A DNA stretch of 58,667 bases from Candidatus Saccharimonadota bacterium (GTDB taxonomy: Bacteria; Patescibacteriota; Saccharimonadia; Saccharimonadales; Saccharimonadaceae). The stretch covers positions 1 through 58,667 of the forward strand of contig JAUMZA010000005.1 of the NCBI GenBank assembly GCA_030528355.1, given 5' to 3'. Both the position numbers and the translations under genes were made by a program. The notes beneath the pieces were generated by a model that searched no databases, was not told the origin of the DNA, and was given only the letters and a program-made list of their open reading frames with translations. This document shows, piece after piece, positions 5,141 through 22,052 of this stretch. The first letter of the stretch is position 1. Each line of letters starts with the position of its first letter.

Positions 5141-6409
5141 CTACAAATCCCCCGTCACTGGCTGATGTATGACGTCAATTTTTGACCCACCAATACCACA
5201 CACACCACGTTCAAAATCCGCTGCAGTATCAGATACGAGATATCGCTTACAGATATCGCCATTAATCGCAATGGTTGCTCGTGGCAGCGGAATCGCCCTG
5301 TCTGAAACGGTCGTCTCAATACGTGCTTCAATCCGCCTAAAGACATTGTTAGCTCGCCCTGTCGCATCGACACGTGGCTGCACGTTATCAAACAAAACAG
5401 GGTTGCCACTGGCATCAAGCATACGAATCTTTACGTTAAAAGGACTCCCCTTGCCATACAGGCCTGCCAAGGTTAAGAACGCAGACCTATTATTATTGTG
5501 TTTTGGTAGACGCAGCAATGCACGACACGCATACTGCCCAACTGCCACCCTGCTGTCACACTGAGAGCCTCGTGCCATGAGCGGCTTACCGTACGCACCA
5601 TCCGTCACGGGCATATCAGCACTGTGTGGAGAGAAGGCCGTATGTGGGTCAGCGGTTGCCATATCAACCACTGTATTACCCCGTGTGCCCGCATCTGGGT
5701 ATAAAAATACCGTACGAGCATCGCTGTCGAGCTCACGCAATGAGCCAATGCCAACAGCTGGATACGATAGGGCCTGCACGCGCAGTAACGTACCCCACTC
5801 GCCACGCCAGTTATCCTCCTCAGGAAGCTGTGCATTAACACGAGTATTTCTTTCGCCACCTAATCGTCGATTTTTTTCTGCCTGCGAGAAGTTGAGAGCC
5901 GCACTGCCGGCTGGGCGTTGGAACCACGATACCTCGACCGTTTCAAATGGCTGCTTGGCCCGCAACGGCACAATTTTTATATCACCCTCATTCTTAATCG
6001 TTTTTACAACATCTTCTGTATCGGTTGCCACTGTTACACAGGTGTATGCCTGTTGTAATTGCTCATCGGCTTGCGTTTGCCTAATTAACTGCTCGCCGCC
6101 GCCGCCCAACAAGCGAGAAACGGTATCGCATTTTTGAGCTCGGACAGTGTTGACAACTTTACGACAAGAGTAATCTTGGTTATTGTTGGCCTCCATACAG
6201 GTGGCATACTTGGCAAGTACTCGCTTTGCATCTTCTACTCCTGCTTTGGCCGAATCCAATGCACTCTGCGACAGGTCGTTATCAGTCGCTCGATTTTGAT
6301 CGCGCAACATCAACATTGCAAACCCTACCGAGATTGCCACAAATAACAATGTTGCAAAAAGTACTATAAATATCGAAACCGCCCCTTTTTGTTGTTTCAT
6401 ATACGCCAT
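5141..6409 (-). CDS. PilX-like minor pilus assembly protein
   Basis: A 422-residue protein with a short basic N-terminus (MKQQKGAVSIF) and one strongly hydrophobic helix directly after it. The rest is an exported domain with several Cys pairs. It lacks the G-F-T-x-x-E prepilin cleavage site of its neighbours, but KGAVSIFIVLF resembles PilX-type N-termini (the KG, then hydrophobic, then an early E/Q position). It is the last gene of the minor-pilin run 8785-5141 and probably a minor pilus or pilus-tip component. The start is uncertain: ATG at 6409 has GGGG only 2-3 nt upstream; ATG at 6400 has it 11 nt upstream. No enzyme motif seen. Confidence 0.6.
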   Translation of the reverse strand: MAYMKQQKGAVSIFIVLFATLLFVAISVGFAMLMLRDQNRATDNDLSQSALDSAKAGVEDAKRVLAKYATCMEANNNQDYSCRKVVNTVRAQKCDTVSRLLGGGGEQLIRQTQADEQLQQAYTCVTVATDTEDVVKTIKNEGDIKIVPLRAKQPFETVEVSWFQRPAGSAALNFSQAEKNRRLGGERNTRVNAQLPEEDNWRGEWGTLLRVQALSYPAVGIGSLRELDSDARTVFLYPDAGTRGNTVVDMATADPHTAFSPHSADMPVTDGAYGKPLMARGSQCDSRVAVGQYACRALLRLPKHNNNRSAFLTLAGLYGKGSPFNVKIRMLDASGNPVLFDNVQPRVDATGRANNVFRRIEARIETTVSDRAIPLPRATIAINGDICKRYLVSDTAADFERGVCGIGGSKIDVIHQPVTGDL

Positions 6410-6445: not shown

Positions 6446-7375
6446 TTATAGACTGCCCGAGCGTGCCACGAATTCTATATTGTTAATTGCACAATATTCT
6501 GCGTATGGATCGCCCCTGATGACGTTCTTACCACAGAAGTGCGTGCTGCCCACCTCGCTATCTCGGACGATGCGGGAACGATCAATCATGTACTCTTCAT
6601 CGAATAATGACGAGCCAATTGTAATGTTAATCGTATAGAATGATGAGTAAAAGCGGCTTGCAGACAAGGCTGGGTCTTGTTGTGATTGGTACGACAATTC
6701 TCTTGGTGAGGTGATGTGTATGTTGTAGACAACTAGGTTACGCTCACTGTCCCCAAAAATTGGCACAACATCAATAGCACTGCTATAGTTGGGTAGCCGC
6801 CATCCCTCCTGAAACTCACGATCTGTCATGCCATTCTCTGCTAGCCGAGCTGCACTACATAATCGCTTATCTGTATCAAGTAACTTGGTAAAGCGAACTG
6901 GCTCGAATGTGCGAGTTGTTGGTGATCGCATAAATTGTGCTTTTCCGACCACCCCGTTTGCTGGCAATGTGCCATTATTAACCCGCTTATTATACTCTAT
7001 AAAACTACGGCGATGATTCCATACATAGGTATATACACCTGTACACAAGCGGCCGCCAGATTCAGGGTCATTATAGTAATCCAGCTCTCTATCAGTAGCT
7101 TCTCGCAGGGTTTTTGCGACACGGGTCTGTAGTGCCCCGCCCGGCCGAGGCACCACGTCAGCAAGCTGCAACGCTCCAGGAGATCTTGCAATATCATCTT
7201 GCAAGCTACGAATTAGATGTCTTGTTGCAGTATTCACATCACGCATTGTAACACCTTTGTTATATAACGAGGTGAGCTGAATGCCAATAAATACCACAGC
7301 AAGAATCAATGCCGAAATAAATGCCATCGCCAGCGTGACCTCTAGTATAGTAAACCCCTTACGCCTCTGGTGCAT
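6446..7375 (-). CDS. Type IV pilus minor prepilin (PilW/PulJ-like)
   Basis: A 309-residue prepilin. The N-terminal class III signal is RRKG/FTILEVTLAMAF, with cleavage after Gly and the conserved Glu at +5, followed by the long hydrophobic assembly helix. The body is larger than a major pilin and contains RLCTGVYTYVWNHR and RSRIVRDSEVGS; I cannot assign a fold. Its start overlaps the end of the preceding prepilin gene by 17 bp. The size and position (third in a run of four) fit PilW/GspJ-type minor pilins that prime fibre assembly. Confidence 0.8.
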   Translation of the reverse strand: MHQRRKGFTILEVTLAMAFISALILAVVFIGIQLTSLYNKGVTMRDVNTATRHLIRSLQDDIARSPGALQLADVVPRPGGALQTRVAKTLREATDRELDYYNDPESGGRLCTGVYTYVWNHRRSFIEYNKRVNNGTLPANGVVGKAQFMRSPTTRTFEPVRFTKLLDTDKRLCSAARLAENGMTDREFQEGWRLPNYSSAIDVVPIFGDSERNLVVYNIHITSPRELSYQSQQDPALSASRFYSSFYTINITIGSSLFDEEYMIDRSRIVRDSEVGSTHFCGKNVIRGDPYAEYCAINNIEFVARSGSL

Positions 7376-8069
7376 ATAACCTCACAACTGTCCCCATTCG
7401 CTGCAAACCGCCACCAACAGGCGACTGCCAACATGCCCGAACATGAAAATCATAATGACTCGACAATGGCTGTGTACCACTCGCACCACCTTGCAAATCT
7501 CGTACCGGCTCTCCTACCCTAATTGCATAAATCCACACCATATGCGACACCGGCCGAGAAGTACCAGCACCGCCCGAAGCTTCTTGTACTACTCTTGCAA
7601 AGGTGGTAGGTGTTATTATATTTGGCTTTACATCAGTAGTATTCACAAGTTCTACTTGGCCGGTTCGTGGGTCGATAAAAAACGCATTTACTCTACTGCC
7701 ATTGCGTAGACTTGACGGTATTGCCCCTTCAGGGCTACAGTCTTTTATCTCACGCACCCGATCAAAGGCGGGTATTGTGTCACCAGAAGTAAAGCTTGCA
7801 CTGCGTATCTGTTGCCAGCTGTTGGCAATATTACTAGTGCTACTATTGGTCCGGGCAGGGTCGATATTCACAATTGCCACACTATTAATGTGACGTAGCA
7901 GCTCTACCTGGGTATCAATTTGAGCACGCACTTGGGTAATCTCTAAAGAACGCTGTGCACTGCCGATACTACGATTCATGACAAACATTGCCGAACTAAC
8001 CACGGCTGAAAAAATCGTCATAGCAAGCAACACTTCGATAATCGTATCGCCTCGGGTATACTGCCTCAT
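7359..8069 (-). CDS. Type IV pilus minor prepilin (PilV/GspI-like)
   Basis: A 236-residue prepilin with the cleavage signal RQYTRG/DTIIEVLLAMTIF. The residue after the processed Gly is Asp rather than the usual Phe or Met, while Glu+5 is kept. Such D-T-I-I-E-V-L signals are common in CPR and Gram-positive minor pilins. After the membrane helix comes a mixed alpha/beta domain ending VRACWQSPVGGGLQRM. It overlaps both neighbours (4 bp upstream, 17 bp downstream), so the minor pilins are made from one message. Confidence 0.8.
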   Translation of the reverse strand: MRQYTRGDTIIEVLLAMTIFSAVVSSAMFVMNRSIGSAQRSLEITQVRAQIDTQVELLRHINSVAIVNIDPARTNSSTSNIANSWQQIRSASFTSGDTIPAFDRVREIKDCSPEGAIPSSLRNGSRVNAFFIDPRTGQVELVNTTDVKPNIITPTTFARVVQEASGGAGTSRPVSHMVWIYAIRVGEPVRDLQGGASGTQPLSSHYDFHVRACWQSPVGGGLQRMGTVVRLYAPEA

Positions 8070-8785
8070 GAACGCACCCTTTCACATACCCCATCCCCGC
8101 TACGGGTGGAGATTTCTGCTGCACTCACAGCATGGTTAGGTATAACGATTGCCGACCACTGGCGAGGATCGGGGTTCTGAGGATGACGCAAACATATCAC
8201 GATATCCTCCCATACTCTCCCCCAGCTGCCGCCCTCCCTCGACTCCTGGAGCAATACAAACCCTTGGGTGGGGTGTTTTATAATGCGAAAGGCATGATCT
8301 CGATACGGCATGCCGCCCCGAGCTTGCGAATACCGAGCCTGCACCCCCCAGTCGATCGTAAAATTGGTACGGTTTTCATCATTTTCACCTCGTTCACCAT
8401 AACTAACCCGTCGATTATGATCGAGAAATGCCTTTACCGCACTACTGGTGACATTGGTGGTTTCGTTTGCACCGTTTGTAATGCGAAGCTCTTTGCCTGC
8501 AAAAAAGCATGGTGCCGCCCCACGCCACGTTTGCGGGGATTGTCGTGGATCGGGCGTGCGGCCATTACAGCGATCAACCGTACCCTGGAGGTCGTTTTTA
8601 ATTGCATCAGTATCTTCAAATGCACCAGCAACAAAATCACGAAAAGAACTTACTGCCTCTCGGTAGTGCTGATCCTGCAGACGGCGATGTGAATTCGCCA
8701 TGATGCCCGTCATTAATAGTGTGGTGATTGCCAGTACCAGTATCACCTCTATTAACGTGAAGCCTTGTTGTAGATGCCGACCCAT
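8066..8785 (-). CDS. Type IV pilus minor prepilin (GspH/FimT-like)
   Basis: A 239-residue prepilin starting MGRHLQQG/FTLIEVILVLAITTLLMTGIM. It has a canonical processing site with Phe+1 and Glu+5 and a 20-residue hydrophobic helix. The outside domain is rich in Arg, Gln and Trp with two Cys near IVICLRHP and DGVCERV. It is the first of three overlapping minor-pilin genes, immediately downstream of the prepilin peptidase. The GspH label rests on order only. Confidence 0.8.
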   Translation of the reverse strand: MGRHLQQGFTLIEVILVLAITTLLMTGIMANSHRRLQDQHYREAVSSFRDFVAGAFEDTDAIKNDLQGTVDRCNGRTPDPRQSPQTWRGAAPCFFAGKELRITNGANETTNVTSSAVKAFLDHNRRVSYGERGENDENRTNFTIDWGVQARYSQARGGMPYRDHAFRIIKHPTQGFVLLQESREGGSWGRVWEDIVICLRHPQNPDPRQWSAIVIPNHAVSAAEISTRSGDGVCERVRS

Positions 8786-8818: not shown

Positions 8819-9712
8819 CTAAAGAGGCATTGCACCAGATAGATACGCAGCGACAAGTTTCGTGCCGTAAAGCATAGCAATCACCCAGCCAATAATCAGA
8901 AATGGGCCGAACGGAATACGAGTTTTGCGAGTAAATTTTTTCATGGCCATGCCTGGAATAATCCAAATACACCCCAATAAATTGGCCAAAAATAACGCCA
9001 GCACTGCCTCTGTCCAGTGTGGTAGCATTATCGCCAACGGTACGAGCAACTTTACATCACCAAAACCAATCCAGCCACCCTTAGAAAATGCATATAACGC
9101 CCAATATAAACCCGGCAACACCAGCAGAGAACCGCCTATGGTAATCGGCAATGTGGCAATTTCAGCAAAGCCGCCCACCGTTCGTAACGCAACAAACAGT
9201 ACTGCACAAACTGTTAACACTATCGTAATCTCATCTAGTAGCAAAAACCACTTGGCATCGTAGATGATATGGATCGTCACCAGCACTAATACCACAATCC
9301 AAACAACGAACAGTGCAACTGCCATCACCGACGAGAACCCAAATGGCCACGCAATGTACGATACCGCCATAGCGGCTGCCAAACCAAGTTCTGCGAGCAA
9401 TTCTACCTTCCCGATCGGAGCCTGACAGGTGCGACACTTGCCACGTAAGCACAACCAACTGAGTACTGGAATAAGATCGAACCACGCCAATTGACGATTA
9501 CAACCTAGGCATATCGAACGGTCTTTCGCACCTTTTTTGCCACGCAATTTTTTAATCGTTGCGAGCTCCTTTTTTTCTGACGAGGTAAGCATATAGCCCG
9601 CTGCAGCATCGCTTGCCAGTTGGCGAGCACGCAATCGCCATACGGTTGCTGCGGCAAAACTACCCAGCATAGCCCCTAATATTGCCATAATTACTACCAT
9701 ATACTGCTCCAT
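8819..9712 (-). CDS. pilD: Prepilin peptidase (leader peptidase/methylase)
   Basis: A 297-residue polytopic aspartyl protease that cleaves prepilin leaders after Gly. The cytoplasmic loop after the first helix carries two CxxC pairs (CLGC and CRTC around LIPVLSWLCLRG). The two catalytic Asp are in the IIYDAKWFLLLDE region and in GFGDVKL, the family signature. The loop between helix 1 and CLGC has a lysine-rich insertion (SEKKELATIKKLRGKKGAKD) that is longer than in standard PilD. It lies between the major pilin and the minor pilins, separated from the pilin by a hairpin. Confidence 0.93.
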   Translation of the reverse strand: MEQYMVVIMAILGAMLGSFAAATVWRLRARQLASDAAAGYMLTSSEKKELATIKKLRGKKGAKDRSICLGCNRQLAWFDLIPVLSWLCLRGKCRTCQAPIGKVELLAELGLAAAMAVSYIAWPFGFSSVMAVALFVVWIVVLVLVTIHIIYDAKWFLLLDEITIVLTVCAVLFVALRTVGGFAEIATLPITIGGSLLVLPGLYWALYAFSKGGWIGFGDVKLLVPLAIMLPHWTEAVLALFLANLLGCIWIIPGMAMKKFTRKTRIPFGPFLIIGWVIAMLYGTKLVAAYLSGAMPL

Positions 9713-9797: not shown

Positions 9798-10289
9798 TTA
9801 CACCTGTTCACAGCGAGGAGTTGGATTACCACTACCTTCTACCTGGAAAATGAGTGCCGCTTGGCGAGCACCAGCCGCAACCACTGCACCGTCCGCTCCA
9901 CAGGCTGCACTAACCACATACACAACATTAATCAAGTTACCTGCACGCAGTCCATCTGTTGAGCCGGCTGTATTAGGGTTGGTTGTAATATTAGTACCAG
10001 CAATCGTACCACCAATCAATGAAGTCGCTGGATCATAAATATTAGTAGCCTGATTTGCCATCTGAGCCCTCAACTGAGCAAGTGTTGGCAAGGTGCCTCG
10101 GTTATTCGATTTAAAGGTACCGACCACCGAACTAATAAGACCTACGTCCTGTAGACGCTGCTGATCGCGCTGGCTACGCTGCAATGCTGGCCATGCGATA
10201 AACACCATCAAGATAATCAAGGCCGCAATCGCAAGCACCAAAATCACCTCGATAATGGTAAAACCCTTCAGTTGCATTTTTTTGTTCAT
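9798..10289 (-). CDS. Major type IV pilin (prepilin)
   Basis: A 163-residue prepilin with leader MNKKMQLKG followed by FTIIEVILVLAIAAL. Cleavage after Gly, Phe+1 and Glu+5 are all canonical. The helix is followed by a globular domain with NxxG/T-rich loops. Two Cys, at SAACGADG and PRCEQV near the C-terminus, could form the D-region disulfide loop. It is the simplest and most pilin-like of the prepilins here, has a good Shine-Dalgarno (AAAGGGTGG, 7 nt), is preceded by a 109-bp gap and followed by a hairpin, all suggesting separate strong expression. I therefore call it the main fibre subunit. Confidence 0.88.
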   Translation of the reverse strand: MNKKMQLKGFTIIEVILVLAIAALIILMVFIAWPALQRSQRDQQRLQDVGLISSVVGTFKSNNRGTLPTLAQLRAQMANQATNIYDPATSLIGGTIAGTNITTNPNTAGSTDGLRAGNLINVVYVVSAACGADGAVVAAGARQAALIFQVEGSGNPTPRCEQV

Positions 10290-10398: not shown

Positions 10399-11619
10399 CT
10401 AACGTGCAATATTGGTGCCACTCGTACCTACCAATGTGTAGATTGGCATCAGCACTGCCATCACAATGCCACCCGCCATTAGTGCCATCACCACCATCAA
10501 GGCCGGCTCAATCACCGTTGAGAGGGCTTTAATCTCCTCGTCAATCTCGTCCTCGTACACTGTTGCAAGCTTGCCAAGCATTTGACTAATACGGCCAGAT
10601 TTTTCGCCGATCTTAATCATTTGCGGCACCAGTGTAGCAAAATACTCTTGATCTGACAACGCCTTCGACAGTGCCATACCACCCTTAACCCGCTCGGCGG
10701 CGGTATGGATATTTTTTGCCACATGCACATTATCGACTGCGTCAGCCACCACATCAAGCATATCAAGCATTGGTACGCCAGTTTCGAGCAGTGTTTCAGC
10801 AGTACGTGTAAAGCGAGCCATGTAGAGCTTGCGAAAGAGCTTGCTCACAAGTGGAAGATTGAGCTTTAAGCTATCAACTACACTCCTGCCGGCATCGGTA
10901 CGTACATACTGGCGTGCAAAATAAACCGCAATAATCACACCCATAATCATCACCCACCAAAAGTTCTTAACGGCGGCAGCCACCCACACCAGTACTGCCG
11001 TTGGAATTGGCAGCGGTTTATTAAGTCCAGCGTAGAGCTGTTCGATTTGCGGCACAATCGTGACCAGCATGAAAGTAATTACTAGAATAATCACTACAAA
11101 CACGATTGCCGGATAATACAACGCTCCTCTCACACGACGCATAATAGCAGCATCTTTTTCCTGCTGGTCGGCGATGCGTTTCAGTGCACGATCAAGTGTT
11201 CCAGAAGTCTCGCCCGATCGCACCAGTGCGATATAGAGATTATCGAACACCGCTGGATGGCGAGCAAACGAATCGTGTAGCGTCCGACCACCCTCGACAG
11301 AGGTAACAATATCCTGCACCACCGCTTGCATCTTTTTGTTTTGAGTTTGTTCAAGAATAGTATGCAAACTTTGTGCAAGCGGCAAGCCAGCCTCCACCAG
11401 GGTTGCAAGCTGCCGGGTAAAAAATACCTTATCCTTCGATGAAATACGCTGTTTGATTTTGTCTAAAAACGACCCCCTACCCTGCTCATTGATTGCTAAC
11501 GGCGAAAGATTCTGCGCCAGCAAAATACGAGCCGCATCTCGTTCAGTGTCAGCTTGCACGGTGGCATGAATGACGCCTTTTGTTTCGTTATCACGAGCAG
11601 TATAGGTAAAGGCTTTCAT
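10399..11619 (-). CDS. pilC: Pilus assembly platform protein PilC/GspF
   Basis: A 406-residue inner-membrane protein with two tandem T2SSF domains (about residues 70-195 and 275-395). The two share RQLATLVEAGLPLAQSL and RTAETLLETGVPMLDML motifs. Three hydrophobic segments are visible (near 167-190, 215-235 and 370-395). The N-terminal MKAFTYTARDNETKGVIHA is the usual PilC start. It connects the PilB/PilT motors to the pilin pool. It lies 3 nt downstream of pilT, so the two are co-translated. Confidence 0.95.
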   Translation of the reverse strand: MKAFTYTARDNETKGVIHATVQADTERDAARILLAQNLSPLAINEQGRGSFLDKIKQRISSKDKVFFTRQLATLVEAGLPLAQSLHTILEQTQNKKMQAVVQDIVTSVEGGRTLHDSFARHPAVFDNLYIALVRSGETSGTLDRALKRIADQQEKDAAIMRRVRGALYYPAIVFVVIILVITFMLVTIVPQIEQLYAGLNKPLPIPTAVLVWVAAAVKNFWWVMIMGVIIAVYFARQYVRTDAGRSVVDSLKLNLPLVSKLFRKLYMARFTRTAETLLETGVPMLDMLDVVADAVDNVHVAKNIHTAAERVKGGMALSKALSDQEYFATLVPQMIKIGEKSGRISQMLGKLATVYEDEIDEEIKALSTVIEPALMVVMALMAGGIVMAVLMPIYTLVGTSGTNIAR

Positions 11620-11622
11620 ATG

Positions 11623-12693
11623 CTATGCCCGAAGTGACCTTTCAAGCTCTGTCAGATCAACTGCGTAGTTGCGAGCTTCTTCCATGGTAATTGTCCCCGC
11701 TTGTACCAAATTTGCCAGCGTGCGATCCATTGTCTGCATGCCTTGATCAGCACCGGTCTGAATCACGGCATCAAGCTGGTGACTCTTACCCTCCCGGATA
11801 ATATTACGTACGGCCGGATTCGCCACCAAGATTTCTGCAGCCACCACCCGACCACCGCCAATCGCCGGCACTAAACGCTGTGAACAAATTGCCATCAAAA
11901 TATTTGAAAGCTGTGCACGAATTTGCGGCTGCTGGTGCGGTGGGAAAACATCAATCATGCGGTCAATCGACTGTGCCGCCGAGTTAGTGTGCAGGGTTGC
12001 AAATACCAAGTGTCCGGTTTCGGCAATGGTAATGGCTGCTGAAATTGTTTCGAGATCACGCATCTCGCCAATCAATACTACATCTGGGTCTTGGCGAAGA
12101 CTTGAACGCAGTGCAGCCCCAAACGAGTATGTATCGTAATGAATTTCACGCTGCACAACCACTGATTTTTTACTTTTATGAGCATATTCAATTGGATCTT
12201 CGATTGTAATGATGTGTTGAGATTTTTCAGAATTAATCTTATCGATAATGGCTGCTAAGGTGGTTGATTTACCACTACCAGTTGGCCCCGTGACCAATAC
12301 CAAGCCACGAGGATAGTCGGCAAACTTCGAGACCACTGATGGCATACCTAACTCTGTAATAGTGCGGATTTCACTTGGGATTAAGCGGAAGGCTGCCGCC
12401 AAGTTGCCTCGCTCATGAAAGGCATTTACACGAAATCGTGCAAGCGTACCAAAGGCAAAGCTAAAGTCAAATTCTTTGTCTTTTAGTAGGACTTTTTGCT
12501 GCTCTTCATCCAAAATAGTAAAAATCAACCGTTCAATCGTTGGCTCATCTAGCGGTTCGCTGTTTGCAACCGGCGTTAAGCGGCCGTCAACACGAATAAT
12601 CGGCGGTAAGCCAACCTGCAAATGAAGATCTGAGGCGTTTTTACGCAGCACTTCGTCTAGTAGTATTTCGATTCGCATTTCTTGGTTAGTCAT
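11623..12693 (-). CDS. pilT: Pilus retraction ATPase PilT
   Basis: A 356-residue hexameric ATPase of the secretion ATPase family. It shows the Walker A GPTGSGKST, Asp box, Walker B region (VLIGEMRDLETI) and His box (HLVFATLHTNSA). The PilT-specific C-terminal AIRNLIRE motif appears as AVRNIIREGKSHQ. It retracts the fibre, so twitching motility or DNA uptake is plausible. It sits between pilB and pilC in one operon with short spacers. A Shine-Dalgarno-like GGGGGAT is just upstream of the start. Confidence 0.95.
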   Translation of the reverse strand: MTNQEMRIEILLDEVLRKNASDLHLQVGLPPIIRVDGRLTPVANSEPLDEPTIERLIFTILDEEQQKVLLKDKEFDFSFAFGTLARFRVNAFHERGNLAAAFRLIPSEIRTITELGMPSVVSKFADYPRGLVLVTGPTGSGKSTTLAAIIDKINSEKSQHIITIEDPIEYAHKSKKSVVVQREIHYDTYSFGAALRSSLRQDPDVVLIGEMRDLETISAAITIAETGHLVFATLHTNSAAQSIDRMIDVFPPHQQPQIRAQLSNILMAICSQRLVPAIGGGRVVAAEILVANPAVRNIIREGKSHQLDAVIQTGADQGMQTMDRTLANLVQAGTITMEEARNYAVDLTELERSLRA

Positions 12694-12708: not shown

Positions 12709-14472
12709 TTATACTGTCACCCTATTTACTTCCTCGAGCGTTGTCACCCCATCGAGCGCCTTCAAGTAGCCATCTTGTCGCATTGTAATCATGCCCTGCT
12801 CGACCGCTAATCGCTGAATTTGTGCACTAGTTGCCCGTGAGGTAATGAGTCGCTGAATCTCTTCGGTCACATCCATCACCTCGTACAAGCCAGCACGCCC
12901 CGCATACCCACCTGGCGAAATTGGCGTATTTTTGCCAATTGCGAGGTCGTATTCGGATTGCCCTGCGAGCGGTAAGCCTTCATATCCCAGGTCTTCTGAC
13001 ACGGCCGCCACCTCTTCACGGGTTTTTGGCAATAAGTGGCCAACGGTCGAAAGAATGGTTTGTGTTTCAAGCTCGTTTGACTTATAGATTTCACGACGAC
13101 GAGCAATCCGTCGCACCAAGCGTTGCCCAATCACCGTATTCACCGTACTAGCAATCAGAAATGGCTCAATTCCCATATCAAGCAAGCGAGGCAGCACGCC
13201 TGCTGCACTATTGGTGTGGAGTGTGCTAAACACCAAGTGCCCTGTGAGTGCCGCCTGCACTGCCAAGGCCGCCGTTTCGGAGTCACGAATCTCTCCGACC
13301 ATTACTACATCTGGGTCTTGACGCAAAATACTACGTAATCCGTTGGCGAAAGTTAGCCCAACTTCGTTATTGACCTGAATTTGGTTTACTCCCGAAATTT
13401 TATATTCAACTGGGTCCTCCAGGGTAACAATATTGATAGATTCGCTTTTTATCTCCTTAATGAGTGCATACATACTGGTTGATTTACCGCTACCAGTTGG
13501 CCCCGATGTCAAAATCATGCCGCTTGGCTTTTGAATACCTGCCCGGATTGCTCGTAATGCACGCCCTGCATATCCCATTTCCTCAAGATCAAACGAATTA
13601 CCTGTTTTATCAAGCAAACGGATCACGATCTGCTCACCCCAAATAACTGGGCTGATTGCGATACGCAAGTCTACTTCCTTTTGTGCAACATTAACTGCAA
13701 ACTGACCATCTTGCGGGATGCGATGTTCGTCAATCTTCAACTCTGAGAGAATCTTCACACGACTCACCAATGCCGGTTCGATGGTTTTTGGTAGCCGCAT
13801 CACCTCGCGCAATACGCCATCAATACGAAAACGAATAAGCAAAAATTCTTCCAGCGGCTCGACGTGGATGTCGCTCGCTCTAGTTTTCACTGCGTACTCG
13901 AGAATAGTGCTCAGTGCTCGGCTAATTGGCGAATCCTGCACAATTGTTTTGACATTGGCGGCTTCTTCTTTGATGCTTTCCGCCTGTGAAACGCTCGCTG
14001 CTTGATCGACCGCACTTAAATCAGTTTTGTACTGTTCGAGCACATGCTTAATACTGGTTTCAGAGGCCATAAATACCTTCACTGGCCGCTGAATTTGGCT
14101 AGCCAAGTAGTCAACCGATTGGACATTGCCCGCATCAATCATCGCAACCGCCAGGCGGTTTTGCACTTCTGCCAGCGGCACAGCCATAAACCGCTCGGCG
14201 ATATCTTGCCGCAGCAAGCCAAGAATATCCTGGTTAATTACCGCCGAGGTGAGATTAACATAAGGCACGCCCGAAACGTACGCCACGCCGTGGACAATCA
14301 ACTCCTCATCAACAATATCTTTTTCAATCAGCACAGAGGTTAGCTGACGATTAGTGTTCATCGCCTCCTCTATGCAACTTTCAAGTACGGCACTATCAAC
14401 CAGACCCTCTTCAACGAGGGTGTGCTTGAGTCTATCCTGGATTTCTACTGTAAGTTGTATTGGCATATGCAT
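12709..14472 (-). CDS. pilB: Pilus extension ATPase PilB/GspE
   Basis: A 587-residue motor ATPase. An N-terminal T2SSE_N-type domain (about 1-150) precedes the ATPase core with Walker A GPTGSGKSTS near residue 325, Walker B MVGEIRDSETA and His box HLVFSTLHTNSA. The tetracysteine zinc motif that normally lies before GYxGRxGLxE is absent: the segment reads PISPGGYAGRAGLYEVMD without Cys. Two possible starts (ATG 14472 and 14466) both lack a clear Shine-Dalgarno. It drives pilus polymerisation and is part of the pilM-to-pilC operon. Confidence 0.94.
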   Translation of the reverse strand: MHMPIQLTVEIQDRLKHTLVEEGLVDSAVLESCIEEAMNTNRQLTSVLIEKDIVDEELIVHGVAYVSGVPYVNLTSAVINQDILGLLRQDIAERFMAVPLAEVQNRLAVAMIDAGNVQSVDYLASQIQRPVKVFMASETSIKHVLEQYKTDLSAVDQAASVSQAESIKEEAANVKTIVQDSPISRALSTILEYAVKTRASDIHVEPLEEFLLIRFRIDGVLREVMRLPKTIEPALVSRVKILSELKIDEHRIPQDGQFAVNVAQKEVDLRIAISPVIWGEQIVIRLLDKTGNSFDLEEMGYAGRALRAIRAGIQKPSGMILTSGPTGSGKSTSMYALIKEIKSESINIVTLEDPVEYKISGVNQIQVNNEVGLTFANGLRSILRQDPDVVMVGEIRDSETAALAVQAALTGHLVFSTLHTNSAAGVLPRLLDMGIEPFLIASTVNTVIGQRLVRRIARRREIYKSNELETQTILSTVGHLLPKTREEVAAVSEDLGYEGLPLAGQSEYDLAIGKNTPISPGGYAGRAGLYEVMDVTEEIQRLITSRATSAQIQRLAVEQGMITMRQDGYLKALDGVTTLEEVNRVTV

Positions 14473-14479
14473 TTATAAA

Positions 14480-14821
14480 TTAATTTGGCCGCTCCACTGG
14501 GGCTGCGGTAACTGTTGGGTCGGCAGCTTCTTCGGTAGCCTCTTTTGATCTGTCTGCAGGCGAGATTCCAAGTCCACCAACTGAGGCACCAGCCGCCGCC
14601 TTGATATCATTTTGTACGTGTACTTCAACAGTTGGATTAATGGCTTTTTCGTTAAAAATGAGCTTTGATGGCTCTACGAGCGAATCCTGCACTGCATCAA
14701 TCGTTTGCACCTTTTTTTCACGCTTTACCTTATCACCCAATACAGATTGAGCAATAAAAAATGTCAACATCATACTAAATGAGGCTATCAATATAATCAT
14801 GGCAATCTCTGCACGCTTCAT
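14480..14821 (-). CDS. Small single-pass protein of the pilus operon
   Basis: A 113-residue protein starting MKRAEIAMIILIASFSMMLTF, with one N-terminal membrane helix. A charged linker and a low-complexity tail rich in Ala, Glu, Thr and Pro follow. It lies between pilO (1 nt upstream) and pilB (7 nt downstream), the place PilP takes in proteobacteria. It has no recognisable PilP beta domain and no lipobox, and without a secretin a PilP-type function is not needed. Possibly an alignment-complex accessory; I do not recognise a family. Confidence 0.7.
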   Translation of the reverse strand: MKRAEIAMIILIASFSMMLTFFIAQSVLGDKVKREKKVQTIDAVQDSLVEPSKLIFNEKAINPTVEVHVQNDIKAAAGASVGGLGISPADRSKEATEEAADPTVTAAPVERPN

Positions 14822-14822
14822 A

Positions 14823-15506
14823 TTACCCCTTTATTACCTTTTGTTTCATTTCTAATTTGGCCGGCGGTAAATAACTGACTGATCCGGAAATTTGCAACGT
14901 CACTACACCACTTTCCCGGGAGGACGCACTAATAGATTGGATATCGACCGCACGAATTGATCGCTCAAGCCGCTGCAATACCGTACGTAGTGCTTCTGGC
15001 GAACCAGAAACCGTAAAGGAGAATTGCTGACTCATCTCTTCTGATGAAGGCGACGAGCCACCTACGGCCCCGCTAGGCGTACCGCTGCCAGCGGCAAATG
15101 ATACCGACTCAACCGAAACACCCGGCACGTCAGCAAGCAATTTTTGCTGCAAGGATGCACCAAGAGCAAGGTCATTTGCATCAGCCGGCAAGGCATCAAG
15201 CACCGATTGTATCGCTGGCGTATCCTCGTTCAATCGAACCGCTTTAAGCTGTGGACTGGCATCAACCACCTTTATACCTGCCTTGAGCTCCTTGGCTGCG
15301 GTAATATTCTTTCGCAACTGATCGGCGGTTTTACCCTTTTCGTGGAGTACCTTCTCGTTAAAAATAAGCAACTGCACAAGCAATATCATCAATACTACTG
15401 CTGCACCAATCAGAGATGAGGCAACCACCACCCATGTAAACACTGCCTTGCTAGTTTGATCAATAAGTACCTGTTTGCGAATGATTCCACCGTTTTTATT
15501 TTTCAT
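14823..15506 (-). CDS. pilO: Pilus alignment protein PilO-like
   Basis: A 227-residue bitopic protein with one N-terminal helix (about 22-48). A coiled-coil stretch (EKVLHEKGKTADQLRKNI) and a C-terminal ferredoxin-like domain follow, with FSFTVSGSPEALRTVLQRLERS, the typical PilO strand-helix pattern. It partners PilN at the membrane. A Gly/Ser-rich loop (SGTPSGAVGGSSPSS) interrupts the domain. The stop and start codons overlap with pilN. Confidence 0.82.
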   Translation of the reverse strand: MKNKNGGIIRKQVLIDQTSKAVFTWVVVASSLIGAAVVLMILLVQLLIFNEKVLHEKGKTADQLRKNITAAKELKAGIKVVDASPQLKAVRLNEDTPAIQSVLDALPADANDLALGASLQQKLLADVPGVSVESVSFAAGSGTPSGAVGGSSPSSEEMSQQFSFTVSGSPEALRTVLQRLERSIRAVDIQSISASSRESGVVTLQISGSVSYLPPAKLEMKQKVIKG

Positions 15507-16279
15507 TATTGCCCCTCCGTTGTCGCTGGTGTCTTTGGTTTTGTTTTCTGGAACAAATTACTTGGCAAGCGCACATACGAATCGGTGACATTACCCCTTG
15601 AAAGCCCTTGAATAGATTCGATATGATGACGCATACTAAATACCTCTGGGGCATACGTAAACGAAATACTAAAACTTACCGAACGCTTATCACCATTGTC
15701 ACTATTGGTAGTACCCAGGCTAGAAAGCACCACATTAGATGCAAAATGCACTGACGTTAACTTTTCGTTACCGCTCGGTATCGTACCATCATCGTTATAT
15801 GGTTTATAAAATATTCGCAACGCCTCAATATTCTTCTTAAATACATCGGCCGCCTCAAATCCGCCTACATCGGTCTGAGCAGTTACCGTCATACTACTAT
15901 CCTGCTTATTGAATGAAAAAGTCAAAATACTTACTGAATTATCAGTCCCCTTTGCCGAGGCTACCGATAAAATATTAAGAATACGTGACGTCAGCTGCTT
16001 ATTGGCATGCGTTTTATCGATATGAGTGAGTTGATTCTGAATTGTAATCGTCTTATCAAGATCTTCCACGGCACGCAAACTATCGTACTGCTTTTTTATC
16101 TCTTGATTCGCTGCCGCATCACGAAATGCCTGCACGCCAAATACATATATCGCCGTCAACACGACCATCGACAGTGTAATAATGGTTACTAAAATCGCTA
16201 CCGACACCACAATATTACGCTGACGCTGGGCTCGTATCAGTTTTAGTTTGACATCTGGGATAAGATTAATTTGAATCAT
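15506..16279 (-). CDS. pilN: Pilus alignment protein PilN-like
   Basis: A 257-residue protein beginning MIQINLIPDVKLK. The INLIP motif is the classic PilN N-terminus that docks into PilM. A membrane helix (about 22-48), a helical coiled region and a beta domain with VHFASNVVLSS and SFSISFTYAPEVF follow. The C-terminal 30 residues are extra and rich in Lys/Pro/Thr. It overlaps pilM by 4 bp and pilO by 1 bp. Confidence 0.88.
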   Translation of the reverse strand: MIQINLIPDVKLKLIRAQRQRNIVVSVAILVTIITLSMVVLTAIYVFGVQAFRDAAANQEIKKQYDSLRAVEDLDKTITIQNQLTHIDKTHANKQLTSRILNILSVASAKGTDNSVSILTFSFNKQDSSMTVTAQTDVGGFEAADVFKKNIEALRIFYKPYNDDGTIPSGNEKLTSVHFASNVVLSSLGTTNSDNGDKRSVSFSISFTYAPEVFSMRHHIESIQGLSRGNVTDSYVRLPSNLFQKTKPKTPATTEGQ

Positions 16280-17322
16280 TTTAGGACCCTCTGGGCAAGC
16301 CCGACTGCGGTGGCAAATTCATATTCAACCGCTGCCATGCGTTCACGCTCAGTATCTGGAATTGCAACTTTTTGCCAAGGGCTTGTCACCTGTACTGGTG
16401 TCGCAAGCCGCTCAGCCACAAACTCGGCCAATAATGGAATAGTAGCCGCATAGCCCACCACATTAATTGACTCTACTGTCACTGCTGGGTATTTTGTTTG
16501 TAAAAACTTAATCGATTTTGTGAGTTCGGCAATAAAGTTTTCAAGTGTGGCATCAAGTGCCTGGTATACCTGGCCTTCTAGCTTCTCCTTTTCAAGCCCA
16601 AACTTGAGCAAAAATTGCTGTGCTTGCTCATCCTTCGCATTCATTGCTTGGGTGATTGTCCGCACCATCATCTGAAAGCCGGTTGGCAGTGTACGAACCA
16701 ATCGTGGTGAGCCATCAATTGTAATAACCACATCGGTTGAGCGTTCGCCGATATCAATCACCATACAACCACCTTTAGCGGTTGCTGGCACCACCGCTCG
16801 CAGCATCGCAATAGGGCTTGGCTCGGCAGCAATCACATTAAATCCAAGTGAATCAACCATATCAACAAGATTCTCAACGTATTCTTGAGTAACACTAGCA
16901 AGCAACACCTCATCCTGTGCAGGATCTTCAGGCGAATCGCCTAACACCGCCCAGTCAATCTTGGCGTCATCCAGCGGCATAGGAATATACTTATCTGCCT
17001 GGTACTTGAGTGTTCCCGCACGGTCGCTTTCGCTCATTTTTGGCAGTTGTACCATAGTAGTAAAGGTTTTGCTTGATTCGAGCCCCAGTACACAATTGGT
17101 TGCACTAATCCCAGCCTGTGCCACTACTGATTGAATTGCCTGACCAAGCTTGCGGCGAGCCTCTTCCGAGTCGCTAGCTACAGTTTGTGCATCAACCGAC
17201 GCATACCCCACATGCAGCAACGACCAGCTGTCATCACCCTGTCGTGCCAACTGTACCACACGAATCGATTTCGTGCCAATATCCAGTGCAAAGTAGTCGC
17301 CCATCCCCTTAAATATACGCAT
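16276..17322 (-). CDS. pilM: Actin-like pilus protein PilM
   Basis: A 348-residue cytoplasmic protein of the FtsA/PilM actin-like fold. Phosphate 1 motif DYFALDIGTKSIRVVQL near residue 10, phosphate 2 MVIDIGERSTDVVI near 190 and the adenosine motif INVVGYAATIPLL near 290 are all visible. It binds the PilN N-terminus to build the inner-membrane platform. It is the first gene of the pilM-N-O-x-B-T-C operon, with its own promoter and almost no leader. Confidence 0.94.
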   Translation of the reverse strand: MRIFKGMGDYFALDIGTKSIRVVQLARQGDDSWSLLHVGYASVDAQTVASDSEEARRKLGQAIQSVVAQAGISATNCVLGLESSKTFTTMVQLPKMSESDRAGTLKYQADKYIPMPLDDAKIDWAVLGDSPEDPAQDEVLLASVTQEYVENLVDMVDSLGFNVIAAEPSPIAMLRAVVPATAKGGCMVIDIGERSTDVVITIDGSPRLVRTLPTGFQMMVRTITQAMNAKDEQAQQFLLKFGLEKEKLEGQVYQALDATLENFIAELTKSIKFLQTKYPAVTVESINVVGYAATIPLLAEFVAERLATPVQVTSPWQKVAIPDTERERMAAVEYEFATAVGLAQRVLK

Positions 17323-17332
17323 AGTTATCCCT

Positions 17333-17361
17333 ATTATACATAAGCTTTTTTACCGACGCAA
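17333..17361 (-). promoter_or_regulatory. Promoter of the pilM operon
   Basis: On the minus strand TTGCGT (17361-17356), a 17-nt spacer and TATAAT (17338-17333). The -10 ends 10 nt before the pilM ATG, so the leader would be only about 3-4 nt. Confidence 0.75.
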
Positions 17362-17369
17362 TAGATGGT

Positions 17370-17408
17370 AAGAAAATAGTCATGCCACAGTAATTACAGC
17401 ATGACTAT
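17370..17408 (-). terminator. Terminator after the 1262-residue protein gene
   Basis: Perfect 10-bp stem ATAGTCATGC / GCATGACTAT with a 13-nt loop (17376-17408), followed on the minus strand by TTTCTT. It ends 9 nt upstream of the pilM -35 box and separates the two transcription units. Confidence 0.75.
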
Positions 17409-17419: not shown

Positions 17420-20400
17420 CTAGTAGCGAGGCGGTAAGTCAACTGTTTGCACAGTGGTAAACGTATATTGCCCTGCATCCACCTGACCAAGTGCCCAAAG
17501 GTATGCATCTGGCCGCAAGTTAAAGGTTTCACCCGAGATACTCTGTCGTAGTTCGTATGGCGGCTGATTATGCTGATCCTCACCGCTGCTACGCCGCAGA
17601 TAGAGTTTCTTCACTGCCACCGGACCATTCACTACCAGGCGATTCGTGTAGCACGGATGCGGCACATCCGACCCATCCCCACTGCGTGATCGAGGCGTAT
17701 CGGTCGCTACACCCTCAACATAACAGGTGTTGATGATACCTTGCGGATTTAGCAGCCATGCATCGATTTGACTTACTCTGGCATCAATATCGATCAGATA
17801 CTTACTAGTAGTAGTTGCTGGTACAAATACAATCTGGCTCAATTCGCGCCGATGTACGTATGATTCTGGCAGCTTCACGTCGTTAATAAAGTGCAGTCGA
17901 GCCTTATCACCAACATAGAAGACAAGCGTAGTAGCCTTTTTTGCATCAAAGCCAGTGGCATCAATCTTATAGTTGGCCTTTTTAGGGAGGGTGTATCGCT
18001 GAGAGCCACAGCGTGACAGCCTGATAATCGTACCATCAATACATGGTGCAATAGGTGTCACAGCACCCTTCTGCCGCAGTGCAAAGAAGGCCTGTAGGCG
18101 GTCAACTCCATCATTGACACTATCCTTAAAGCTGCCAAAGCTCGTTCGGTTGCCTGTCATCCTACGGGCAGTGTACTGATTACTAAAGGTCAGGAAACCG
18201 TACGGATCGTAGTCGAAAGCATCACTCAAGCCTGTGCGATATGCACCACCGCTTGCCATATTCTCTATCCATCGAGAGCCAATTAAGGCATACTCTGCCC
18301 AGGAGCCATATGTACGTTGGCTGCCAGCCGCACCTAAGCGATCTTTGCGGTTAGTTTCAGTAAAGACATAGCCATTCACAATGGCGTCGCCACCACGCAC
18401 CTGTACTGATGGCCGATAACCCGAAACAATACATTCCGCACTTGAAAGATAACGCTTGTACGAGTGAGCATAGTAGCCAGGGTTGAAGTTAGGTGTTGAA
18501 TTACCCCTCGTATAATAACGCCTATCTGGATATTTAAGGTCGTTATCCATTTTATCGATATACACTGCGTAGCAATATTTTGTACCCGGCGGCGTTTCTG
18601 GAGGGATGTCGCGCACGATGGTGCCAAGCTTAATAGTGCCAGTATAATTATCATAACCGCTCAATGTGCGAATGCCCGGTTCGCCGGCAGTTAATGCTTT
18701 TTCGCGATTGTCACCATCATCACACGATACGACTGCATCGTTACCAAGCCTTTCACGATAGAAGCGGCAAATCTCATCATCATTCAAACCGTTGACTGGC
18801 CGGTCGTTATTAAAGTATAGCCCGTGCTGCCCGATATAGCGTTGCTCAAACCCATGTGCACGAATTTTCTTACCCGCACTGCCCGGCTTCAGCACCACTT
18901 CAACCACACGCAGCTTTGTATGCTTAATCGGGCCGCTATTGGTTGTATCGTGCTTATCATACGGATGTACGGTGTCGGTATAGCCACCCTTTTTCACCGA
19001 AACCTCTGCCTTTATACCCTTTGTGCCGTCAGGGGTGAGGTTAGAAGCTCGCACCTCACCACGAAGATTATGTGGCCTCTTAAGTCGCAAGAAGATATGC
19101 GGGAAGTAGGTATCGGCATTGGTTGATTTGGCGTGATTCGCCTCCCGGCCCATTGTGAAGAAGCGGCCATCACGAATGCCTTCCATCCACGTGAGCTTTG
19201 AACGCTCCCAGTCAATCTCACGGTCTGCCAGCTCCGGCGGCAATACCACCGAGCTCCTATCCGTTACCTGGAATACATTAAACAAGCCGTTATAATAATT
19301 AATCTGTCGCACATATGGCACCTTAATATGATCTAGCAGCTTCCAGTTGCGGGTTAGGGATTCGATTGCAAACCCAATTGCTTGCCAGCCAGCTCGCTGT
19401 TTGGTATCGTCATCACCCGCCCCAAACACTGCCCCCAGCAACTCAAATAGAGTTTTTAGTGAATACTTTCCAATATAATCCTCTTTATCTTGCCGCAACG
19501 TATTGGTATTACCACGACCATAACAGTCTAGCATCATCTTGCCATTATACGAACCCTGGAACAGGAAGGTAATGCCATCATACGAAGGCCCCTTGCCAAT
19601 CAAAAGCGATTGAATACTGAACAACCAACCCGGAATAACAATTGGCAGCTGTGTATTTGGCACAGAAAACGCATACGAAGGCACTTTTGGCACCGCACCA
19701 TGCCTACCTAAATCTGGAGCATTGGCATATTCGTAACACATTGCATACTGATCGCTAGCTCGTACCTGGACATTTGCCATCTTACCAGTTGGGCCAAACA
19801 GCCTACTGGCCAAGTTACCGATCCTTACCTCAATTGTATCTGCGATTGAACTTAAATCACTCCCAGAATAGTTACGATATCTATATAGCTCCCTCTGCAT
19901 ATCTCGCAAGTTATTAGTAGCATTGCCGGGCATGCCAGCCTGTAGTTGACTATTAACCCCATTTTGGAAGTTAAACGAATCATTAATCACGTTCATAAGA
20001 TCGCCACTATGGTGCTCAAGTCCACCTAGGCCGGGTGTCGCTGCATTGTAGGAGCCAGCACCATTTTTCACTTTATTATACATCTCGTCATCAGTTGCAA
20101 AAAAAACACGAGGGACTATTGTGGTTTTATCTCGGCCAAACCTGTCTGGTTTCGTAATTCTAACATCATTCCAGTGATCAATATACTCATTGCCAAATAG
20201 CGACTGTGGCATGCCGTTGCGCCTGGCAGAGTCTGGCATATCTTGCAATGCATACAAAAATGACTTTCGTATGCCATCTTCGTTAAATGCACTATCACCA
20301 GAGGCTTCACGCTTACGCCGTTCCATACCCACTCGAACTGCATCTTCAACCACCTGAGGATAGTTAGTTGTAAGCGGCTTCTTATGATCGGGGAGTCCGA

Positions 20401-21208
20401 AAGCTACATGCCTCTCAGCTCGATGTGGCTGGTCTGCCGCATATCGTACATACCGCACCAGCAACTCCTTTATATACTGCTCACGCTTCTCATACTCATC
20501 CTTAAAGTATCTGTCTGGCAGACTAATCGCACCACTTGCTTCGGCGTACTGCTTGTACTTATTGTAAGTATATTTGTGGTTGGCAGGACTGTAGTCATGC
20601 GTCTGATTATTAATCCCCTGAAACAAACGCCATGCTGGTGTGCCACGAGGGTTCAAAATACTTGCCTGCTGATATAAAAACGGGTTGGCAGTTTTACCGA
20701 AAATTGATGTAATACTCTGGGGATCGCTTGCTAATCCACTGAGCCATGCTAAGCTGGGTACCGGAGTAATATCAAACCGAAATTCGTTTGCATAACCAAC
20801 TGGTTTAGCGTCCCTTTCGGCAAAGCCGTTAATTGCATTGGCTTTCTCGGGCGTTTTTTGATCCCAGTCATAAATTGGCAGACGCACAATTGCATTCACC
20901 AAGCCAAACTTTGGCTCTTGAATCTTGCCCATCGCAGGGTCAATCGCCCCAATAAGGGCGTTAATTCCACTAATAGGCAGACTTTGACTCAACGCCGTAC
21001 TGCCTGCACTAAAGAACGAATAGCAGCGATCGTCATCTCTGTTAGCACCTCGTGTCAGGCTATTGCCGCGCCATGAAGGATGAATTGTACCATTCCCAAG
21101 CGCCCCGGCACCATTCGCCAAACCTAGCGAAAGCGATAACACCAACAAGCAACCCAGCACTGCCATGTCGGTTCGCTGCAATAATCGTTGTAATTTAGTC
21201 TTCATCAA
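17420..21208 (-). CDS. Very large exported protein upstream of the pilus operon
   Basis: A 1262-residue protein, the largest in the window. A signal-peptide-like helix (about 15-36: AVLGCLLVLSLSLGLANGAGA) is followed by a long Tyr/Asn/Arg-rich exported region. There are about 16 Cys, mostly in the C-terminal third. No C-terminal membrane anchor, LPxTG motif or metal-binding EF loop is seen. The C-terminal third (RGGDAIVNGYV, ISQIDAWL-like and NRLVVNGPVAV segments) looks beta-rich, as in surface adhesins. Its position directly before pilM, where other pilus loci carry tip adhesins such as PilY1, suggests a pilus-associated or surface adhesin; this is inference. It overlaps by 14 bp the gene of a SurA-like protein that may fold it. 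Confidence 0.72.
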   Translation of the reverse strand: MMKTKLQRLLQRTDMAVLGCLLVLSLSLGLANGAGALGNGTIHPSWRGNSLTRGANRDDDRCYSFFSAGSTALSQSLPISGINALIGAIDPAMGKIQEPKFGLVNAIVRLPIYDWDQKTPEKANAINGFAERDAKPVGYANEFRFDITPVPSLAWLSGLASDPQSITSIFGKTANPFLYQQASILNPRGTPAWRLFQGINNQTHDYSPANHKYTYNKYKQYAEASGAISLPDRYFKDEYEKREQYIKELLVRYVRYAADQPHRAERHVAFGLPDHKKPLTTNYPQVVEDAVRVGMERRKREASGDSAFNEDGIRKSFLYALQDMPDSARRNGMPQSLFGNEYIDHWNDVRITKPDRFGRDKTTIVPRVFFATDDEMYNKVKNGAGSYNAATPGLGGLEHHSGDLMNVINDSFNFQNGVNSQLQAGMPGNATNNLRDMQRELYRYRNYSGSDLSSIADTIEVRIGNLASRLFGPTGKMANVQVRASDQYAMCYEYANAPDLGRHGAVPKVPSYAFSVPNTQLPIVIPGWLFSIQSLLIGKGPSYDGITFLFQGSYNGKMMLDCYGRGNTNTLRQDKEDYIGKYSLKTLFELLGAVFGAGDDDTKQRAGWQAIGFAIESLTRNWKLLDHIKVPYVRQINYYNGLFNVFQVTDRSSVVLPPELADREIDWERSKLTWMEGIRDGRFFTMGREANHAKSTNADTYFPHIFLRLKRPHNLRGEVRASNLTPDGTKGIKAEVSVKKGGYTDTVHPYDKHDTTNSGPIKHTKLRVVEVVLKPGSAGKKIRAHGFEQRYIGQHGLYFNNDRPVNGLNDDEICRFYRERLGNDAVVSCDDGDNREKALTAGEPGIRTLSGYDNYTGTIKLGTIVRDIPPETPPGTKYCYAVYIDKMDNDLKYPDRRYYTRGNSTPNFNPGYYAHSYKRYLSSAECIVSGYRPSVQVRGGDAIVNGYVFTETNRKDRLGAAGSQRTYGSWAEYALIGSRWIENMASGGAYRTGLSDAFDYDPYGFLTFSNQYTARRMTGNRTSFGSFKDSVNDGVDRLQAFFALRQKGAVTPIAPCIDGTIIRLSRCGSQRYTLPKKANYKIDATGFDAKKATTLVFYVGDKARLHFINDVKLPESYVHRRELSQIVFVPATTTSKYLIDIDARVSQIDAWLLNPQGIINTCYVEGVATDTPRSRSGDGSDVPHPCYTNRLVVNGPVAVKKLYLRRSSGEDQHNQPPYELRQSISGETFNLRPDAYLWALGQVDAGQYTFTTVQTVDLPPRY

Positions 21209-22052
21209 TATACTCCACCACTCTTACCTGTTCACCAGCACGTTCGAAGGCCTGTACCTGCGCTCCTGTCACGTTTTTTAATCGATCAAGAATATGCATA
21301 AAGAAGAACGTACCGCTATATGCCACCTCTTGCACCCCACATATAGCAGTCTGTTTACAGTTGGCGATATACTGTTTAATATCATCTTTGAGTATTGGAA
21401 TTGGCTTATAGATAGTACGGCCATCCTGCCCGGTCATTAATCCATCATAGGTAAAAATACTTTCGTTCACAACACCAAGACTAGGATATTGTTCCCTAAT
21501 CGCATCAACACCTTCGTCACTCCTACGCTCCACAATCGCTGTACGGGCAGCTTCGATAAGCTTCTTGGCTTCTTGTTTAGTTGGCAACCCGTACTGCCCA
21601 GGAGTTGTCTGAAACGGCAAGCGAATCAACCGGGCTTCAACCCCTTCAATTCCCTGCAAATCAATAGCCCGCTGCACCGCCGAACGATACGCCTGTGCCC
21701 GAGCAACTGCGTCAGTCATTTTACTGTCTTGTGCTTTATAAAACGCACGGCGATTTTCAGCATACTCATGGGACACTGGGAAGTTCGCCACCCGAGCCGC
21801 CTCCTGCAAGCGATAATAATCAATCAACAATGAGCGAGCATCTTTTTTAGTAAAGCCAGCCCCTTCCGCCTGTTTGATAAACGAGTGGTAATCTCTTGTA
21901 TAAATCACCTTGTCGCCAATCTTAAGTGCTGGCGTGTCTTCCAATCGTTTTATCAGCCACCAGCCAATCGCTAGCAATACCAATACAATCACCGCCACCC
22001 CTGCAATGATTATGAGCTGTTTTTTTGTCGGTTTAGTTATCTTTTTTTGCAT
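21195..22052 (-). CDS. Membrane-anchored SurA/PpiC-N-like protein
   Basis: The ATG at 22052 (MQKKITKPTKKQ) is preferred over one 14 codons upstream, because it gives a basic N-terminus directly before one membrane helix (about residues 13-35). The outside part starts with LKIGDKVIYTRDYHSFIKQA, the pattern at the beginning of SurA/PpiC N-domains, then a helical region and a C-terminal beta segment ending VAYSGTFFFMHILDRLKN. No clear rotamase active site is visible. Its end overlaps the start of the 1262-residue exported protein by 14 bp, so it is probably a dedicated chaperone for it. Confidence 0.68.
   Translation of the reverse strand: MQKKITKPTKKQLIIIAGVAVIVLVLLAIGWWLIKRLEDTPALKIGDKVIYTRDYHSFIKQAEGAGFTKKDARSLLIDYYRLQEAARVANFPVSHEYAENRRAFYKAQDSKMTDAVARAQAYRSAVQRAIDLQGIEGVEARLIRLPFQTTPGQYGLPTKQEAKKLIEAARTAIVERRSDEGVDAIREQYPSLGVVNESIFTYDGLMTGQDGRTIYKPIPILKDDIKQYIANCKQTAICGVQEVAYSGTFFFMHILDRLKNVTGAQVQAFERAGEQVRVVEYIDED

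Follow-up and report, generated by a model that had tools for sequence, protein, structure and literature searches.

A giant exported protein and its anchored partner beside the T4P-1 locus of a Saccharibacterium: a candidate PilY1-like tip protein and its helper

Which protein would occupy the tip of the retractable type IV pilus (T4P) of Saccharibacteria? The question is raised by a gene pair in contig JAUMZA010000005.1 of Candidatus Saccharimonadota assembly GCA_030528355.1, a stretch of 58,667 nucleotides that was analyzed as a whole (the window) and that belongs, by gene content and nearest named relative, to an ultra-small parasitic Saccharibacterium with an 835-kb genome in 21 contigs. 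Here, a pilus locus of the type called T4P-1 is preceded by the gene of a giant exported protein (1261 amino acids (aa), 17420..21205, minus strand, from the reading of open reading frames (ORFs)) and, overlapping it, the gene of a small membrane-anchored protein (285 aa, 21195..22052, minus strand, with its ATG at 22052), referred to below as the helper. T4P-1 is essential in N. lyticus TM7x and likely powers twitching (PMC12206443). No non-pilin tip protein is named for it in the literature that we found, and the giant is a candidate that is conserved across the order. On balance, we lean toward reading the giant as a PilY1-like tip or priming protein of the retractable T4P-1 that is built on a different scaffold, and the helper as a translationally coupled, membrane-anchored chaperone that would handle the giant as it leaves Sec. 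The role of the giant is suggested by its PilY1-like layout, its linkage to the locus, a predicted solenoid known from a tip pilin, relocated copies beside pilins, and its joint absence with T4P-1 from one family; that of the helper is suggested by overlapping or near-touching genes, a gene fusion, a SurA/PrsA-type fold, the fastest divergence in the locus, and TPR matches in the alternative helpers.

A conserved gene pair upstream of pilM

A contig scan with the giant itself confirmed no relative, and a PilM alignment was used instead to scan 84,980 species genomes, yielding 80 loci that were picked for their closeness to the PilM of the window, that mainly represent the window's own family, and of which 77 have upstream sequence and are testable. 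All 77 carry a member of the giant's family upstream of T4P-1 pilM, immediately so in 76 cases and with one intervening gene in the other. When the giant was used as the query against 61 genomes, relatives were found in 22, mostly matching the last ~340 residues only, and a locus-by-locus reading of the same 61 genomes repeatedly places a large exported protein directly upstream of T4P-1 pilM. An order-wide sample has the C-terminal domain of the giant in 247 of its 295 genomes and in 201 of the 223 better ones, counts that are lower bounds, since apparent absences in some complete genomes are partly due to divergence or contig ends. Two such absences were checked, one being a diverged copy (G123, 1059 aa, ending in SLPPVL) and the other a copy truncated by the end of its contig (G049). 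Among the matches listed, 58 order-sample genomes have both genes, and 44 of them, spanning several families, have the domain upstream of pilM at a distance of at most 500 bp; outside the class, there are only weak matches, to the solenoid part. The arrangement of giant and pilM is far beyond chance. An earlier note on this DNA had proposed the link to the pilus from the window alone, and these counts bear it out; the opposite pattern, in which the pair would sit away from pilus genes in most relatives, was looked for and is not what the relatives show. As a separate observation, tandem pairs of family members stand upstream of pilM in four loci (L115, L157, L159 and L086).

Where the gene has moved away from pilM, it can still be found among pilins. 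In two genomes, the relocated giant is lined up with several minor pilins, one of them PilX-like (G238, L202:4335-12247, and G272, L212:1199-10386), and in a third (G011) it lies beside a PilX-like gene. Conversely, the three genomes of family f35 (G070, which is 95% complete, and the incomplete G090 and G100) have neither PilM, PilT, and T4P-1 PilB nor the giant, and carry one T2SSE-type ATPase only, such that this lineage apparently lacks T4P-1.

The ORF of the giant extends over 17420..21208 on the minus strand and would encode 1262 aa from a TTG at 21208, overlapping the helper gene by 14 bp, as the earlier note had it; the next codon is the ATG at 21205, which gives 1261 aa and an overlap of 11 bp. 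This shorter version is more likely because an 11-bp overlap also occurs in the closest named relative, the congener TM7 phylum sp. oral taxon 348 (L095, with 67.2% identity in PilM), and in L096. The description of the giant as Cys-rich proved overstated, with 12 Cys in 1261 aa (0.95%, vs 0.44% in neighboring pil and housekeeping proteins). Two of them, Cys 1161 and Cys 1185, are nevertheless invariant, and the genome encodes a VKOR homologue (G000:C18:22466-22855, E = 6e-31), by which the organism is probably able to form disulfides in exported proteins; disulfides in the giant are thus possible.

Predicted folds of the giant and its helper

The giant opens with a probable Sec signal peptide (residues 1 to ~36, ending in ANGAGA; 21098..21205, minus strand), which was read by eye. 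It is followed by a variable N-terminal region without a Pfam match (residues ~37-864; 18614..21097, minus strand) and by a conserved C-terminal domain, delimited by alignment and model (residues ~865-1261; 17423..18613, minus strand), of which ~370 residues are conserved in the alignment of relatives. W1150, T1160, C1161, C1185, R1205 and E1226 are invariant in this domain, and the DLPPRY tail (17423..17440, minus strand) is conserved in relatives as (D/E)LPPR(Y/F), and takes the form LPP(V/I/L)(Y/L/F) in the order's other families. Both the length and the sequence of the N-terminal part differ between members, and the proteins of the family range from ~560 to ~2350 aa. A vWA domain is found in the N-terminal part of 4 of 37 relatives, and in L173/L050, where it exceeds the Pfam cut-off, it covers residues 44-232, a short way behind the signal peptide; by analogy only, a role of the giant as an adhesin is plausible. 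The giant itself has no meaningful match in sequence searches of Pfam, NCBIfam or the PDB. It also has no prepilin motif, pilin N-terminus or pilin match, its N-terminus being of the Sec type.

The AlphaFold model of the C-terminal domain (mean predicted local distance difference test score (pLDDT) 77.5, predicted template modeling score 0.78) is a β-solenoid of the type seen in ice-binding proteins and ComZ. In comparisons by VIA-align, it superimposes on the ice-binding protein FfIBP (4nu2) with Z = 12.3 and 3.0 Å over 181 residues, and on ComZ of T. thermophilus (6qvi) with Z = 10.2 and 4.2 Å over 218 residues; a family missing from the VIA list was not counted as evidence.

The helper has a short cytoplasmic N-terminus, a transmembrane helix (residues ~10-38), a SurA_N-like helical region and a degenerate parvulin-like domain (residues ~136-257). 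Its likeness to SurA, already suspected from the sequence, is supported by structure: the model (pLDDT 83.9) has a SurA/PrsA fold including the parvulin domain, with 3nrk as the first Foldseek match (E = 3.2e-4), PrsA chains next, and a VIA Z of 8.8 over 92 residues to the first parvulin domain of SurA (1m5y). Sequence supports it weakly, as every SurA_N match is below the Pfam cut-off (SurA_N_3, E = 0.15 in the helper of the window and 0.0024 in the congener; SurA_N_2, E = 9.7e-5 in a fused homologue).

A gene with a single transmembrane segment lies upstream of the giant in nearly every relative, either overlapping it or a few bases apart. As a query, the SurA-like protein reaches only 4 of the 61 genomes, diverging too fast, and the helper was followed by locus position instead. 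In most relatives the slot holds a TPR protein (among 30 that were scanned, 19 match TPR_8 and 10 match TPR_21), and the SurA-like version is confined to the window's genus and a few others. Relative to the congener, identities amount to 27.7% for the helper, 38.7% and 54.1% for the N-terminal region and C-terminal domain of the giant, 67.2% for PilM and 84.8% for PilT, making the helper the fastest-diverging protein of the locus. In one genome (G031), a single 1258-aa ORF (L044:7609-11385, minus strand) joins an anchored SurA-like part to a giant ending in KDLPPRY; an apparent leftover hydrophobic segment lies between the two parts.

TPR proteins often act as docking scaffolds, and their presence in the helper slot of most relatives, together with the apparent lack of conserved parvulin catalytic residues in the SurA-like version, would also fit a small anchored partner that, rather than being a chaperone, serves the pilus machine as a structural tether or an accessory subunit. 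We consider this the less probable explanation, as two different chaperone-type modules (YfgM-like TPR_21 and SurA/PpiD-like) fill the same slot and, in the G031 fusion, the SurA-like part is attached to none other than the giant. YfgM, a TPR protein, and PpiD, of the parvulin type, belong to one complex at the Sec translocon of E. coli (PMC9643414), and the alternation of these partner types in one slot suggests an anchored chaperone for the emerging giant. A dedicated chaperone, as the earlier note had it, is plausible on the basis of translational coupling, the fusion and the rapid divergence; what does not stand is its general SurA-like character, which is a local variant in a slot that holds a TPR protein in most relatives.

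The surrounding locus and the weight of the alternatives

Downstream of the pair and likewise on the minus strand, pilM (16276..17322; PilM_2, E = 1e-35) is followed by pilN (15506..16279) and pilO (14823..15506), both assigned by position and kept in relatives, by a small anchored protein in the pilP position (14480..14821), and, from domain matches, by pilB (12709..14472; MshEN and T2SSE), the retraction ATPase gene pilT (11623..12693) and pilC (10399..11619). Next come a pilin in the pilA1 position (9798..10289), the prepilin peptidase gene pilD (8819..9712) and minor pilins that are FimU-like (8066..8785; GFTLIE motif), PilV-like (7359..8069; GDTIIE motif only), PilW-like (6446..7375; GFTILE motif only) and PilX-like (5141..6409; motif only), the last with an extended C-terminal part and no Glu5. 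The T4P-1 set of pilM, N, O, B and C with pilT, pilD and five pilins is complete. We assign the locus to T4P-1 because pilT, which marks this type (PMC12206443), is present and because the same gene set is listed for locus one (T4P-1) of N. lyticus TM7x (PMC12206443). The PilX-like gene is likely the counterpart of TM7x PilX1 (PMC12206443, PMC7541494). Despite the FimU-, PilV-, PilW- and PilX-like pilins, the PilY1 domain (PF05567) is absent from the locus in a Pfam search.

Two observations stand beside these. In T4P-2 type loci of several families (L071, L072, L075, L088, L089, L090 and L094), a large PilX-like pilin (450-660 aa) lies just upstream of pilM, paralleling the giant in T4P-1. 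The C-terminal half of an anchored protein at 24827-26584 (minus strand) gives a weak match of the class A β-lactamase type (E = 2.9e-5, far under the cut-off); in several relatives, the gene of this protein adjoins tlyA and efp close to the pilus locus.

Between giant and pilM, the picture is less simple than direct succession. The pair does lie upstream, with pilM starting 97 bp downstream of the giant, but this gap holds a terminator-like hairpin of 14 pairs right after the stop codon of the giant (17376..17408, minus strand) and a promoter-like TTGCGT-17-TATAAT ahead of pilM (17333..17361, minus strand). A TATAAT occurs in the gap of 66 of the 77 relatives, vs 6.5 expected by shuffling, as part of a conserved promoter-like element (TTG..., 17-18 nt, TATAAT). 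Because this element separates giant from pilM, the giant and its helper probably form their own transcription unit and are not simply co-transcribed with pilM. A conserved terminator after the giant was considered and rejected, as few relatives share the strong hairpin of the window.

We infer the following route for the giant. It would be exported via its Sec signal peptide, as the signal read from the sequence indicates, and the single-pass helper, which is SurA/PrsA/PpiD-like here but of the TPR type in most relatives, would hold it on the outer side of the membrane. The C-terminal solenoid, with its invariant Cys pair and (D/E)LPPR(Y/F) tail, might then dock on the FimU/PilV/PilW/PilX-like minor pilins, and the complex would prime assembly and end at the tip of the pilus; there, the N-terminal part, which is lineage-specific and includes a vWA domain in some relatives, could touch a host cell, a surface or DNA.

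Several points weigh against this reading. Pilus location, adhesion and chaperone activity are each approached along indirect grounds, and, with a promoter-like element of its own ahead of pilM, the machinery does not form a single simple operon with the giant. Genera g2 and g12 carry multiple copies of the family (up to 6 matches), which stand apart from pilM and for the most part also from pilins; these members (L204, L205, L206, L207, L211 and L212) reach ~2350 aa, several have a small anchored gene upstream, and at least some of them may be free surface proteins. Foldseek with the C-terminal model gave no match at E ≤ 1e-3, and the ice-binding fold as such says nothing on pili. Finally, isomerase activity of the SurA-like helper is doubtful because the SurA-like proteins do not conserve the residue that is likely to be the catalytic His of the parvulin domain; a candidate C-terminal His is found only in the protein of the window and not in L095, L096 or L036.

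The relocated multi-copy members, mostly without pilins nearby, the promoter-like element and hairpin in the window, and the absence of a pilin N-terminus would all agree with the giant being a non-pilus surface protein, that is, a wall- or membrane-associated adhesin that stands beside pilM by inherited gene order. We regard this as rather improbable, considering that adjacency to pilM is maintained across many families of the order, that the relocated copies in G238, G272 and G011 are still beside minor pilins, and that the giant and T4P-1 are both missing from family f35. It is quite unlikely that the main role of the giant, in place of host or surface adhesion, is that of a receptor for DNA at the T4P-1 tip in natural transformation, as has been proposed for ComZ: the C-terminal model matches the solenoid of ComZ, a DNA-binding protein for which a place at the tip, as a pilin, has been argued (PMC6561018), and T4P-1 remains a candidate as loss of T4P-2 leaves TM7x competence unaffected (PMC12206443), but the giant is without the pilin-like domain of ComZ, its large lineage-specific N-terminal part, with vWA in some relatives, looks like variable ligand binding, and T4P-1 is essential in TM7x, yet comEC is dispensable in S. 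epibionticum (PMC10633639).

A broader and more tentative proposal would be that Saccharibacteria swapped PilY1 for a new kind of non-pilin tip protein on a ComZ/ice-binding-type solenoid whose docking tail is (D/E)LPPR(Y/F), that a dedicated anchored chaperone on the Sec side attends to this protein, with its type (YfgM-like TPR or PpiD/SurA-like) exchanged between lineages, and that the variable N-terminal part helps determine what is gripped by the essential retractable pilus, perhaps the host species. The clear domain border of the giant, its tail and its linked helper are direct targets for study in genetically tractable Saccharibacteria; the variable N-terminal half would be an obvious place to seek surface or host specificity, and the helper swap between lineages is a natural test of client-chaperone pairing.

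Comparison with known systems

The giant is not described in the open-access literature that we found, a scope outside which supplements lie, so that an unnoticed mention is possible, and it is not named among the pilus genes in the main text of the Saccharibacterial T4P study, which names pilins and machinery (PMC12206443). The pilus of TM7x for which a role in host binding was shown is T4P-2, the other one (PMC12206443), so the host binding that the earlier note thought possible for the giant stays conjectural. PilX1 and PilX2 of TM7x (PMC12206443) are, like the giant, candidate tip or adhesin components of a Saccharibacterial T4P, but they are pilin-like with extra C-terminal domains (jelly roll and β-propeller), and a PilX-like gene (5141-6409) is present in the window in addition to the giant. 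An identity of the giant with TM7x PilX1 was also considered and is unlikely, the product of 5141-6409 being PilX-like, with a hydrophobic N-terminus of the pilin type, and the five pilins of the locus being accounted for without the giant.

On the side of the helper, the membrane anchor (as in PpiD), SurA_N-like helices and parvulin-like fold recall SurA, PrsA and PpiD, whereas the sequence similarity is very low, the catalytic residues are apparently not conserved, and the gene holds a dedicated position before one presumed client gene. The helper of most relatives resembles YfgM (TPR_21) in having a single transmembrane segment and an extracytoplasmic TPR part, but it is gene-linked to a single exported protein, and the window has the SurA-like version in its stead.

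The C-terminal domain of the giant has its predicted fold in common with FfIBP (4nu2) and DUF3494-type ice-binding proteins, but identity is ~11%, the Pfam matches of the giant include no such family, and nothing leads one to expect ice binding. FfIBP is also the closest relative of the ComZ solenoid according to the ComZ study, in which ComZ is argued to sit at the pilus tip and to bind DNA (PMC6561018). An ice-binding-type β-solenoid in a T4P context, predicted in the case of the giant, is what the two share, whereas ComZ, a pilin, carries its solenoid as an insertion in the pilin fold, and the giant lacks a pilin domain and starts with a signal of the Sec type.

A true PilY1 is rejected at the domain level, given the solenoid model and the absence of PF05567 (T4P_PilY1) from all 37 relatives and all 61 genomes, although the control genomes of the 61-genome search were also blank. 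The C-terminal domain of PilY1/PilC is a β-propeller where that of the giant is modeled as a β-solenoid, and the gene of the giant is usually beside pilM and not in the minor pilin cluster. In layout, however, the two agree. PilY1 has a type I signal, a poorly conserved N-terminus and a well conserved C-terminus (PMC7541494), and the giant is likewise a large protein with a Sec signal (as read by eye), a variable N-terminus that carries vWA in some relatives, and a conserved C-terminal domain, encoded together with T4P or minor pilin genes.

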